A program made the position numbers and the translations under genes. A DNA stretch of 53,663 nucleotides from an uncultured Bacteroidota bacterium (lineage in GTDB: Bacteria > Bacteroidota > Bacteroidia > Flavobacteriales > Schleiferiaceae): positions 1 through 53,663 of the forward strand of contig CAJXNI010000018.1 in NCBI GenBank assembly GCA_913057235.1. Reading direction: 5' to 3'. Shown here piece after piece: positions 44,662 to 49,186 of the stretch. Each line of letters begins with the position of its first letter. Position 1 is the stretch's first letter. The notes under the pieces were generated by a model. The model searched no databases. It was not told the origin of the DNA and saw nothing but the letters and a program-made list of their open reading frames with translations.

Positions 44662-44928
44662 TTAGGCTTCTTGCTCAGCCGGTTTTACAGAAACAAATGA
44701 CTTGTTGCCTTTGCGTCTTTGAAAAACCACGGTTCCATCCGCTGTAGCGTATAAAGTATGGTCTTTACCGATTCCAACATTTTCACCAGGGTTGTGCTTG
44801 GTTCCCCGCTGACGAACGATAATGTTACCGGCAATGGCCTGCTGGCCTCCAAATATTTTCACGCCTAAGCGTTTACTTTCTGATTCTCTTCCGTTCTTAG
44901 AACTACCTACACCTTTTTTGTGAGCCAT
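44662..44928 (-). CDS. rpmA: 50S ribosomal protein L27
   Basis: This 88-aa protein of the large subunit starts [22 protein letters not shown], followed by the conserved [16 protein letters not shown]27 contacts the peptidyl-transferase centre. It lies 12 bp after the rplU stop, the usual rplU-rpmA pairing. No N-terminal extension requiring processing (as in Firmicutes) is present. Confidence 0.97.
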
Positions 44929-44940
44929 GTCTTATCGGAT

Positions 44941-45489
44941 TTATGATTTCTTATCTTCTTTTTTAGCAGCCGTTTCTTTTTTAGCAGCCGTTTCTTTTTT
45001 AGCAGCCGTTTCTTTTTTAGCAGCCGTTTCTTTTTTAGCAGCCGTTTTCTTTTTAGCAGTCTTAGGAGCGGCTTTTTTAGTTTCGGCTTTTACTGCTTTT
45101 TTAGGGGCTGCTTTTTTAGGCGCTTCTTCTTTGGCCGCTTTGTCCTCCGCTTTTTTGGCTGCCGACTTTTTAGCTGCACCTTTGCCTACACCTGTTATTT
45201 CTAAAAGCGTGATGTACTGGCGGTGACCATTTAATTTTTGGTAACCTTTTCTGCGCTTTTTCTTGAACACCATTACCTTATCAGCCTTTAGGTGCTCTAC
45301 AATTTTAGCATCTACTTTGATGCCGCTTATAACCGGGGCGCCAACTTCTACCTTACCATCATTGTCGGTTAGTAAAACTTTGTCAAAAGAAACTTTTGAA
45401 CCCTCTTTACCTTCCAAACGATTTACGTAAAGCTTTTGGTCTTTGCGTACTTTGTACTGATGCCCTGCTATCTCTACAATCGCGTACAT
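44941..45489 (-). CDS. rplU: 50S ribosomal protein L21 with repetitive C-terminal tail
   Basis: Residues 1-100 are an ordinary L21 core ([38 protein letters not shown]), the normal length of the whole protein being about 100-105 aa. Here the protein is 182 aa: an added tail of about 80 residues is made of Lys, Ala and Glu, ending in five TAAKKE-type hexapeptide repeats coded by an 18-bp DNA repeat. The tail resembles histone H1-like or lysine-rich nucleic-acid-binding tails and may reach off the ribosome surface. It is translated in frame and followed by rpmA, so it is not a frameshift artefact. Two promoter-like boxes are upstream. Confidence 0.95.
44965..45054. repeat. 18-bp tandem repeat in the L21 tail
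   Basis: Five near-identical 18-bp units begin at 44965, 44983, 45001, 45019 and 45037, each starting AGCAGCCG followed by a T-rich half. A diverged unit begins at 45055. Each unit codes a hexapeptide (TAAKKE type) on the minus strand. Confidence 0.9.
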
Positions 45490-45682: not shown

Positions 45683-45726
45683 AGCGTAGGCCAGTGATTT
45701 ATTTAGGTGTATGCGCCTTTATTTTT

Positions 45727-45734
45727 TACTTTTG
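45727..45734 (+). promoter_or_regulatory. Candidate -7 element for the M16 peptidase pair
   Basis: TACTTTTG is a full -7 match. The -33 part (TTTAG near 45703) is only partial. The leader to the ATG at 45782 would be about 40 nt. Confidence 0.48.
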
Positions 45735-45781
45735 AGCGCTATTCTTGGATTTGTTATAACAATCAGAAATCTGTTTCACTT

Positions 45782-47098
45782 ATGAAAAAACTGTTCACGG
45801 GTCTCTTAATTACCGGAACCTTAGGTTGGAGCACCGCTCAAACCAACATTGAATTTGAAGAGCACACGCTTGATAATGGCTTGCATGTTATTTTGCATGA
45901 AGACCACAGCACTCCTATTGTTGCGGTTAGTGTTTTATACCACGTAGGTAGTAAAAATGAGGTAGAAGGCCGTACCGGTTTTGCCCACTTTTTTGAACAC
46001 CTGATGTTTGAAGGCTCACCTAATATTGAGCGTGGAGAGTACATGAAAATTGTTCAGGCTAACGGAGGTGCGCTTAACGCCAATACTTCGTTTGACCGTA
46101 CATTTTATTATGAAATTTTACCTTCTAACCAGTTAGAGTTAGGCCTTTGGCTGGAAAGTGAGCGTATGCTGCAAGCCACAGTTGATTCTACCGGAGTGGA
46201 AACACAGCGTGAAGTGGTGAAAGAAGAAAAACGCCTGCGTATTGACAACCAACCCTACGGATCATTCCAGGAAGAGATTTTTGCCAAGGCATTTCCGGGT
46301 AGCTACTATGAAATACCACCCATTGGCACCATGGCCGATTTAAATGCCGCTGAGTATTCTGACTTTGAGGATTTTTACGGAGTCTTTTATGTGCCTAACA
46401 ATGCTACACTTTCCATTGCAGGAGATATTGATCCTGATGAGACTTTGGAAATGATTCAAAAGTATTTTGGAGGTATTCCGGCTGGCACCAGAGAAATCCC
46501 CAGACCTACAGAAGAACCGCCTGCCTTAACCCAAGAGGTAGTAGATACAGTATACGATAACATTCAGTTACCAGGGGTATTTATTGGTTACCGCACCCCT
46601 GCTCAAGGAACCAAAGAAGCCTACGCACTGGACATGCTTTCTAATGTTTTATCAGATGGGCAAAGCTCTAGAATGTACAAGAAAATTGTAGATGAAGAAC
46701 AATTAGGCGTGGCCGTGGCGGCCTTCCCGTTCAGTTTTGAGATGGCCGGTTTGTTCATCAATTATGGCATTGTTACTCAGGGCGTAGAAGCTATCGCTCT
46801 TTCTGCTGCCATGGATGCTGAAATTGCAAAAGTGAGGGAAGAAAAAATTAGCGAGGACGAATATCAAAAAGTACTCAATCAACTTGAGAATGATTTTGTG
46901 TCTTCTAACGGTCGTATGGCCGGCATAGCAGAAAGCTTAGCCAACTACCACGTGTATTTTGGAGATGCAGACCTTATAAATACTGAAATTGAAAAGTATC
47001 GTGAAATTACGCCCGAATACCTGCAACAAATAGCGAAAAAATATTTGGTTCCCAGCAACCGTGTAGTATTGTATTACTTACCCAAAAGCGAATCTTAA
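45782..47098 (+). CDS. M16 family zinc peptidase, catalytic subunit
   Basis: A signal peptide (MKKLFTGLLITGTLGWSTAQ) sends this 438-aa protease to the periplasm. The inverted zinc motif HxxEH is HFFEH at residues 69-73, and the downstream glutamate ligand lies in the E144/E148-149 region, so it is a typical pitrilysin/processing-peptidase-like catalyst. An earlier in-frame ATG at 45707 is less likely because it would add 25 residues before a good signal peptide. The next gene, 15 bp later, encodes a second M16-like chain that lacks this motif. The two likely form a heterodimer with one active site. Confidence 0.92.
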   Translation: MKKLFTGLLITGTLGWSTAQTNIEFEEHTLDNGLHVILHEDHSTPIVAVSVLYHVGSKNEVEGRTGFAHFFEHLMFEGSPNIERGEYMKIVQANGGALNANTSFDRTFYYEILPSNQLELGLWLESERMLQATVDSTGVETQREVVKEEKRLRIDNQPYGSFQEEIFAKAFPGSYYEIPPIGTMADLNAAEYSDFEDFYGVFYVPNNATLSIAGDIDPDETLEMIQKYFGGIPAGTREIPRPTEEPPALTQEVVDTVYDNIQLPGVFIGYRTPAQGTKEAYALDMLSNVLSDGQSSRMYKKIVDEEQLGVAVAAFPFSFEMAGLFINYGIVTQGVEAIALSAAMDAEIAKVREEKISEDEYQKVLNQLENDFVSSNGRMAGIAESLANYHVYFGDADLINTEIEKYREITPEYLQQIAKKYLVPSNRVVLYYLPKSES

Positions 47099-47113: not shown

Positions 47114-49186
47114 ATGAAAAAGATATTTTTAACCCTTTTAGCAGCCGTATTTGCCGCTAGCAGCTTTGCCCAGCTAGACCGAAGCGTGCGCCCTGAGGCC
47201 GCACCCGCAGAGCCTTTGGATTTTGGCAAGTACAAAGTGTATGAACTTGACAACGGCATTACCCTAGTGGTAGTAAGCAATGATAAATTGCCGAGAGTTA
47301 CCTTTCGCATGCTTGTAGACGTAGACCCTATTTTAGAGGGGGAAAAAGCGGGGTATGTTTCCATGGCCGGTTCACTCTTGCGCCAAGGCACCAATAACCG
47401 TACAAAAGATGAACTTGATGAGGAGATTGACTTTATGGGCGCCAGCTTATTCACCGGATCTTCACTGGTTTACGCTAGCGGATTAAGTAAATACTCTGAG
47501 AAACTCATGGCTCTAATGGCCGATGTGGCTCTGAACCCCTCCTTCCCACAGGAAGAGTTTGACAAGCTCATGAAGCAGCAAAAGTCGGGTATTGAAAGTT
47601 CTAAAGATGACCCCGATGCACTTTCCAGCCGCCTTTTCAATGCTACCGTTTATGGCCAAAACCATCCTTATGGTGAATTACTAACGGAAGAGACCCTGGA
47701 TAACATTACGGTAGATGACTGCCGAAATTTCTACAACACCTACTGGGCGCCTAACCGCACCTACATTGCCGTGGTGGGCGACATAAAAGCCCGTAAGGCT
47801 AAGAAGCTGGTGAAAGAATACTTTGGAGACTGGGAGCGCAAAGAAGTGCCTACCCATAAATACCCGGCTCCCCCCCAGCCCACCGGTAAAATGGTGAATG
47901 TGATTAACCGTAGCAACTCTTCTCAAACGGTGCTTCGCCTGGGTAACACCATAGATTTGAAACCTGGTGATCCCGATATTGTAAAATTAGCTTTGGCCAA
48001 TCAAATCTTAGGAGGCGGTTCTTTGGGTCGTTTGTTCCAGAACATCCGCGAAGACAAAGGTTACACCTACGGTGCCTACTCAAGCTATGACGATGACCGA
48101 CTGATAGGCGAATTCAGCGCAAACGCCAGTGTACGCAACGAAGTAACCGATAGTGCCATTACCGAGTTTCTCTACGAGTTTAACCGCTTGCGCGATGAGC
48201 CCGTTAGTGAAGAAGACTTGAGGGCGGCTAAAAACTACATTGCCGGTTCTTTCGGTCGCTCTTTAGAAAGCCCGCAAACCCTGGCCTCTTTTGCCTTGAA
48301 TATTCTTCGCTACAACTTACCAGAAGATTACTACGAAAATTACCTCAACCGCATGGATGCGCTTACCGCTGAAGAGGTGCAGGCCGCAGCTCAGAAATAC
48401 ATGAAAACAGATGCCATGATTATTACCGCGGTAGGTAAAGGCTCTGAAATTGGCGATAAGCTGGAAGCTTTCGGTCCGGTGCAATACTATAACTTCCAGG
48501 GGGAAGAGGTGGAAGCGCCTTCTATGCCTGTACCTGAAGGAGTTACGGCCCAAAGCGTAATTGCTGATTACATCAAAGCCATTGGCGGTGAAGAAAAGCT
48601 GGCCAAGGTAAAAGACATCACCATGAAAATGAGTGCTGAAATTGCCGGTATGCCTCCTAGCATGGAGGCCTCTGCTACCATTATGCGAAAGCGCCCTAAT
48701 TTATTCTTCAATGAGTTAAGCCTTTCCGGTATGGGCGTTCTGCAAAAGCAAGTGTATAACGGTAAAACCGGAAAAGTAAGCAGTATGCAAGGTGAGCAAA
48801 CCTTAGAAGGCGAAGAGCTGGAGCAACTAAAAGCAGCCGGAGAATTTTTTGTAGAAAGAAAGTACGAAGAGCTGGGCTATACCTTAGAATTGGAAGGCAT
48901 GGAAATGCTAGACGGTGAGAAGGCCTACGTATTAAAAGTAACCAGTCCTGGTGATGATGTAAGCACTCAGTACTACTCGGCTGAGACCGGTCTCAAGTTG
49001 AGGGAGGCTTCAACCATAGAAACCCCACAAGGTGAAGTTACTACCGCCCAGGTTTATAGCAACTATGAGGAAAAAGAGGGGGTAAAATTCCCCATGCAAA
49101 TGAAGGTTGAAGGTCCGCAAAAATTAACCATGACCGTGCAGGAAATTAAAGTGAACTCAGGGTTGAAAACTTCTGATTTCAAATAA
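47114..49186 (+). CDS. M16-like non-catalytic subunit with C-terminal lipoprotein-like domain
   Basis: The 690-aa protein has a signal peptide ending near ASSFAQ, then two M16-type domains. Where the partner has HFFEH this chain reads SLLRQG (in MAGSLLRQGTNNRT), so it cannot bind zinc. It keeps the substrate-contacting Arg/Tyr region NIREDKGYTYGAYS. This split of roles is known for processing peptidases and bacterial M16 pairs. From about residue 480 there is an extra domain of about 210 aa (VIADYIKAIGGEEKLAKVKD, then antiparallel strands such as FFNELSLSGMGVL, YTLELEGMEML) resembling LolA-like or outer-membrane-lipoprotein-carrier folds. Coupling by close spacing supports a complex with the upstream peptidase. 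Confidence 0.9.
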   Translation: MKKIFLTLLAAVFAASSFAQLDRSVRPEAAPAEPLDFGKYKVYELDNGITLVVVSNDKLPRVTFRMLVDVDPILEGEKAGYVSMAGSLLRQGTNNRTKDELDEEIDFMGASLFTGSSLVYASGLSKYSEKLMALMADVALNPSFPQEEFDKLMKQQKSGIESSKDDPDALSSRLFNATVYGQNHPYGELLTEETLDNITVDDCRNFYNTYWAPNRTYIAVVGDIKARKAKKLVKEYFGDWERKEVPTHKYPAPPQPTGKMVNVINRSNSSQTVLRLGNTIDLKPGDPDIVKLALANQILGGGSLGRLFQNIREDKGYTYGAYSSYDDDRLIGEFSANASVRNEVTDSAITEFLYEFNRLRDEPVSEEDLRAAKNYIAGSFGRSLESPQTLASFALNILRYNLPEDYYENYLNRMDALTAEEVQAAAQKYMKTDAMIITAVGKGSEIGDKLEAFGPVQYYNFQGEEVEAPSMPVPEGVTAQSVIADYIKAIGGEEKLAKVKDITMKMSAEIAGMPPSMEASATIMRKRPNLFFNELSLSGMGVLQKQVYNGKTGKVSSMQGEQTLEGEELEQLKAAGEFFVERKYEELGYTLELEGMEMLDGEKAYVLKVTSPGDDVSTQYYSAETGLKLREASTIETPQGEVTTAQVYSNYEEKEGVKFPMQMKVEGPQKLTMTVQEIKVNSGLKTSDFK

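Follow-up and report, generated by a model that had tools for sequence, protein, structure and literature searches.

How does a core protein of the ribosome come to carry a long, repeat-bearing and strongly basic tail, and what might such a tail do? The question is raised by a gene for ribosomal protein bL21 in a stretch of 53,663 nucleotides from an uncultured Bacteroidota bacterium, the whole of which is referred to here as the window. The reading favoured in this article, at a probability of roughly 0.6, is that the protein bears a translated, disordered and basic surface tail which makes non-specific contacts with nucleic acids, is optional, and drifts in length by repeat slippage.

The bL21 Gene and Its Core

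The features of the locus are as follows, all on the minus strand.

44941..45489, minus strand: rplU, ribosomal protein bL21, an open reading frame with an ATG start, 182 amino acids, stop codon at 44941-44943
45187..45489, minus strand: conserved L21 core, residues 1-101, PF00829 positions 1-99 of 99, predicted beta fold, best structural match 7jil_R
44944..45186, minus strand: Lys/Ala/Glu-rich C-terminal tail, residues 102-182, predicted to be disordered
44956..45059, minus strand: 18-bp tandem array, 5.8 copies, protein unit TAAKKE, with five identical copies at 44956-45045
45093..45132, minus strand: second, weaker 15-bp array found by TRF, 2.7 copies, in the proximal tail
44662..44928, minus strand: rpmA, ribosomal protein L27, starting 12 bases past the rplU stop codon

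Residues 1-101 of the reading frame are a complete, ordinary bL21, as the original prediction had held. They match the PF00829 profile at 1.4e-35 (121.9 bits, cut-off 27), and the protein scores 94 bits on TIGR00061 (cut-off 43.7, 6.1e-27); these full-length profile matches, the rplU-rpmA gene order with L27 directly downstream, and the single L21 match in a search of the window's genome together assign the protein to bL21.

Elsewhere in the window, two adjoining open reading frames lie on the plus strand at 45707-47098 and 47114-49186, the first with an HFFEH motif; they resemble M16-type zinc peptidases. A further plus-strand frame at 44927-45226 was rejected as a gene, being an antisense reading of the repeat (SFLAAV repeats) with no gene signs.

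Composition and Repeat Array of the Tail

The tail consists of 81 residues with fractions of 0.37 lysine, 0.31 alanine and 0.14 aspartate plus glutamate, giving a net charge of +19. At 0.37 lysine over 81 residues it is a lysine-rich low-complexity region by the threshold of at least 30% lysine given in the L21 passages of PMC6821194, applied here to the lysine content of the tail. Within it, TRF delimits an 18-bp unit of 5.8 copies with 97% matches at 44956-45059, of which five are the same at every base and give five TAAKKE units in the protein, or 30 tail residues. The array occupies 104 of the 243 tail bases (43%), the remainder being other sequence, so the proposal that the tail is built from an 18-bp repeat is right about a real array but accounts for under half of the tail.

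The array is more than a product of chance. Its repeat score of 78 compares with a maximum of 26 in 500 codon shuffles of the tail, and with a maximum of 61 in 500 shuffles that kept the protein and re-dealt its own synonymous codons; because the second maximum is also exceeded, the identity of the DNA goes beyond what the repeated protein demands, as expected of recent copying. Four kinds of alanine codon occur in tail residues 1-49, and only GCT in the last 32. The nearest relative (G001, genus g2; L121) shares 85% core identity and carries a 98-residue tail of different sequence, whose best repeat score is 16 against 78 in the window. The five identical copies would represent the latest expansion in the window's own lineage.

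Other accounts of the array and of its composition were rejected. A shared repeat element is contradicted by a 90-base array query that matches one genome site only, in rplU; a strict AKKxAAKK codon pattern, blind to other Lys/Ala designs, likewise has a single genome match, also in rplU. A donor gene of histone H1 type was rejected because HC2 matched nothing in the window's genome at E up to 1. The tail's weak Pfam hit to Spore_coat_CotO (E 0.028; 14.9 bits, cut-off 35) and several weak NCBIfam matches of the whole protein, below cut-off, were taken as reflecting composition. Frameshifting in the A-runs was also set aside: of the two other frames, one is open across the array and one has a stop in every copy.

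Distribution among Relatives

An L21 match was obtained in 84 of 88 genomes of the window's family, including all 56 of good quality, and all 84 genes, the window's among them, were analysed. Tails were extracted by alignment, which found L21 in 200 of 200 loci, 23 of which were missed by pattern-based extraction. In wider searches, no L21 match was returned for genomes G372 (100% complete) and G122 (92% complete), and genome G135 has two L21 matches.

Within the family, 65 of the 84 genes have a tail of at least 15 residues and the other 19 have at most 4; two loci, both tailed, are interrupted by a contig end. Genera are uniform in the presence or absence of the tail, with the exception of g14, in which both states occur. 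Genus g6, the closest neighbour of the window and g2 in a tree of the L21 core and L27, is tailless in seven of seven members, and this tree demands at least five changes between tail and no tail. As only 12 of its 79 branches are well supported (L27 is missing in 3 of 84), gains are not separable from losses.

Beyond the family, a phylum-wide set was formed from the 27 best-scoring new loci of 196 genomes with an L21 match, out of 198 searched. Among these 27, tails occur in all six loci of the same order and are absent from 20 of the 21 loci from other orders, the exception being L211. Records titled Bacteroidales provide further L21 tails from beyond the order, and twelve of twelve hand-chosen order members with small genomes (family f15, 0.3-0.6 Mb) have no more than 9 residues past the core. 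In a mixed, non-random sample of 202 distinct L21 proteins, 70 extend by at most 6 residues past the core, 108 have a longer tail with no recognised domain, and 13 and 11 carry, by sequence pattern, a helix-hairpin-helix or Rho_N, respectively. The median composition of 107 distinct bare tails of at least 15 residues is 0.31 lysine and 0.34 alanine. On these comparisons of sequences, the L21 tail is evolutionarily optional, with many lineages lacking it.

Changes in Tail Length between Close Species

Tail lengths were compared in 418 same-genus pairs, not independent of one another, in which both tails are complete and at least 15 residues long. At a core DNA identity of at least 0.98, lengths differ in 7 of 12 pairs, six of these by a multiple of five residues; between 0.95 and 0.98 they differ in 24 of 34 pairs (5 by a multiple of five), and between 0.90 and 0.95 in 67 of 82 (14 by a multiple of five). 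Multiples of five dominate only in the first class, so five-residue steps stand out in the closest pairs alone.

The clearest example is genus g18, where the cores of L083 and L088 are identical (303 of 303 bases) and the tails are 60 and 70 residues long, while L080, whose core is identical to each of them at 301 of 303 bases, has a tail of 50. The flanks of the three loci are 91-96% identical, and the residues gained come as complete pentapeptides (PAAKK, AAPKK and VAPKK), which supports the idea of slippage between species; slippage would then be the mechanism of length change. Comparing tail lengths across related genomes, as had been suggested, therefore shows that they differ, even beside identical cores. 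What had been envisaged, however, was variation between strains in a tail lengthened by hexapeptides, whereas the unit of change in the closest pairs of species is 15 bp, a pentapeptide.

Domains Attached to the Lys/Ala Stretch

In some relatives the stretch does not end the protein. Among the 65 tailed family members, Rho_N follows the Lys/Ala stretch in seven and HHH_5 in one; of 36 additional order loci, 11 have HHH_5 and 3 have Rho_N, in a set that contains seven loci picked for long frames, all seven with a helix-hairpin-helix by eye, and five tailless loci. Of ten chosen representatives, four have Rho_N (L013, L036, L053 and L094; 32-46.5 bits, cut-off 24.9) and five have HHH_5 (L048, L055, L056, L102 and L115; 28.7-36 bits, cut-off 27), while L104, the relative closest to the window, completes the ten without either domain. 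All three designs, with a bare tail, Rho_N or a helix-hairpin-helix, are found within genus g3, distributed over its three species. The fusion also extends beyond the order, given that L211 (G444; same phylum, other family) encodes an L21 of 256 residues whose repeats are of KAEAPKAAAP type and whose C-terminal end, with IEGIGP, resembles a helix-hairpin-helix. For one fused protein, L127, the predicted model has a low mean pLDDT of 61, and a fold search with it returned L21 chains only, among the matches listed.

As far as these domain matches indicate, the Lys/Ala stretch serves in some relatives as a linker to Rho_N or a helix-hairpin-helix. Both families bind nucleic acid, and the attachment of nucleic-acid-binding folds to the stretch is the strongest indirect argument that the stretch acts on nucleic acid. 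Matches to the histone H1-like HC2 profile (PF07382) occur in 22 of the 65 tailed family members (best 2.6e-7) and 2 of the 36 order loci, and may reflect composition alone. The window's protein itself has no HC2 match at E up to 1 and neither Rho_N nor HHH_5 at E up to 0.001, where PF00829 was the only match.

Predicted Structure and Probable Role of the Tail

An AlphaFold2 model based on 40 sequences gives a pLDDT of about 90 or above for most of the core, with 67-68 at residues 71-90, and of about 44-60 for the tail, which has no secondary structure and is predicted to be disordered. A stable helix in the tail was considered and set aside, AlphaFold2 predicting none, although this prediction is weak, the model drawing on 40 sequences and the tail being of low complexity.

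In the favoured reading, the bL21 tail would be a strongly basic, disordered C-terminal extension exposed on the outside of the large subunit, where it would most probably work as an electrostatic arm in non-specific contact with DNA or with RNA, whether rRNA or mRNA close to the ribosome. Selection would hold its amino-acid make-up, and its length would drift as short in-frame repeats slip or recombine unequally. The linker position of the stretch in relatives may point to a nucleic-acid-directed role, and contact of the tail with nucleic acid, which the original prediction had drawn from the charge pattern as contact with RNA or the nucleoid, is plausible from the sequences; disorder in the cell, position at the surface, slippage as the mechanism and such contact are the parts of the reading that we infer. 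Against it stand the tailless 19 of 84 family members, the 12 of 12 chosen small-genome relatives and the 20 of 21 loci of other orders, together with the window's own tail, which lacks both a fused domain and a match to HC2. The five-residue steps, prominent in the closest pairs alone, also lower its probability slightly and raise that of the neutral-passenger and cleavage alternatives discussed below.

Selective Constraint and Alternative Explanations

The same scattered distribution leads to the strongest alternative, namely that the tail is a nearly neutral passenger, a repeat-prone stretch that may once have joined the core to a C-terminal domain since lost, and that it is tolerated as a soluble addition to the exposed end of a protein that is non-essential in E. 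coli, as stated in the L21 passages of PMC6821194. Tails of at most 4 residues in 19 of 84 family members and at most 9 in the small-genome set, the three designs of genus g3 and the five or more changes on the tree are all as a passenger would have it. Constraint on the residues argues the other way. Over 13 disjoint equal-length pairs drawn from 55 candidates, pN/pS is 0.28 in the tails (bootstrap 0.13-0.37) and 0.12 in the cores (0.09-0.15), in a set of which two pairs are probably misaligned within repeats, as judged by eye; a hand-picked set of 11 pairs gives 0.13 for both. Copy homogenisation can lower pN/pS in repeats, which, like the two doubtful pairs, limits the strength of the result. 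Because of the tail value of 0.28 over the 13 pairs, the tail is very likely read as protein with its residues under constraint, and the medians of 0.31 lysine and 0.34 alanine over the 107 distinct bare tails also suggest constraint. A passenger is, on balance, possible but somewhat unlikely.

A bolder version of the electrostatic arm would make bL21 of Flavobacteriales an arm by which ribosomes dock onto DNA or nascent mRNA. The Lys/Ala stretch would then be a basic tether, its reach and charge tuned by repeat copy number, with a swappable tip (nothing, Rho_N or a helix-hairpin-helix), and the window would hold the bare-tether version. This extension is unlikely.

It is very unlikely that the A-rich repeat works at the mRNA level, as a cis element that adjusts how rpmA, 12 bases downstream, is translated, with the peptide as a by-product. 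The array does lie close to the rpmA start, but codons change more than residues in close relatives, a folded domain stands between the Lys/Ala stretch and the stop codon in some of them, and tailless relatives exist.

Equally improbable is that the tail is made and then cleaved, so that mature ribosomes keep the core only. The evidence in its favour is structural: the best match of the protein, chain R of the Flavobacterium johnsoniae 70S ribosome (7jil_R), has 104 residues in the structure and 147 in the sequence, meaning that the F. johnsoniae L21 tail is absent from the ribosome model. The reading of these columns was checked on spinach bL21c (5h1s_T; 147 residues in the structure, 201 in the sequence), for which PMC5071890, presumably the source of 5h1s given the matching length, lists residues 56-256 (201) and 91-234 as modelled in the part that describes this protein. 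Disorder predicts missing density equally well, however, and recognised domains placed after the stretch in some relatives speak against removal. For the favoured surface arm, the missing tail of 7jil is no sign of stable contact.

An assembly or frame artefact, to which repeats are prone through mis-assembly, is extremely unlikely, given that the array spans a mere 104 bp, keeps the reading frame and lies well away from either end of the 53.7-kb window, and that tails of like make-up recur across many family genomes.

Implications

The case shows that the conserved core of a central ribosomal protein can be joined to an arm that is driven by repeats and changes fast. The most informative part lies outside the window, in the change of length beside identical cores and in tips that are swapped between nothing, Rho_N and a helix-hairpin-helix; the swap of these designs in close relatives makes a role of the arm testable in laboratory Flavobacterium. 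Binding of mRNA or DNA by the arm, if it occurs, would bear on the placement of ribosomes and their coupling to transcription in the group, in which ribosomes do not recognise Shine-Dalgarno sequences, as PMC9976891 reports.

Comparison with Known Systems

Open-access word searches, whose recall is poor (PMC6821194 was missed), found no paper on L21 with a helix-hairpin-helix and none on L21 with lysine and "C-terminal extension"; titles and the starts of abstracts gave none on L21 repeats in Bacteroidetes, and the phrase "Rho N-terminal domain" was not found among the matches listed in a search of the Rho_N literature. The passages on L21 in PMC9976891, PMC10931766 and PMC11764897 do not mention a tail.

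The PRK12278 models of L21 (NF008916 and NF008915) resemble the window's protein in joining an L21 core to a long C-terminal part. The protein falls below both cut-offs (91.5 bits against 193 and 82 against 281) and has no helix-hairpin-helix; the relative L102, which bears one, scores 136.5 bits. Chloroplast bL21c likewise has a long L21 extension and, in the account of it in PMC5071890, is located on the subunit surface with its extensions on the solvent side and partly modelled; it differs in having extensions at both ends and of other sequence, presumably of independent origin. F. johnsoniae bL21 (7jil chain R) shares with the window the core and a Lys/Ala-rich tail, but has 147 residues against 182 and no TAAKKE repeat in its aligned residues 1-145.

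Low-complexity regions of bacterial ribosomal proteins have been surveyed in PMC6821194, whose relevant passages place the vast majority of them at the C-terminus, where they are expected on the ribosome surface, and report more than 30% lysine in 34 of 45 such regions in L21. The window's C-terminal tail, at 0.37 lysine, shares this property, and since lysine-rich L21 regions are already in print, the kind of tail is known. The L21 passages of that paper contain neither length change by repeat units nor fused domains, both of which were found here in relatives. The window's tail is a disordered basic bL21 tail of this known kind with a recent 18-bp expansion, and the additions to what was known are the distribution over the family, the change of length between close species and the three designs in one genus.

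The best working analogue is AlgP of Pseudomonas aeruginosa, whose histone H1-like tail of KPAA repeats changes in repeat number among clinical isolates and whose KPAA peptides bind DNA in vitro, as reported in the parts of PMC9239181 that deal with the repeats. AlgP is non-ribosomal, has a different unit and is no homologue of L21, but it combines, in a disordered, Lys/Ala-rich and repetitive C-terminus like that of the window, a variable repeat number with reported DNA contact.
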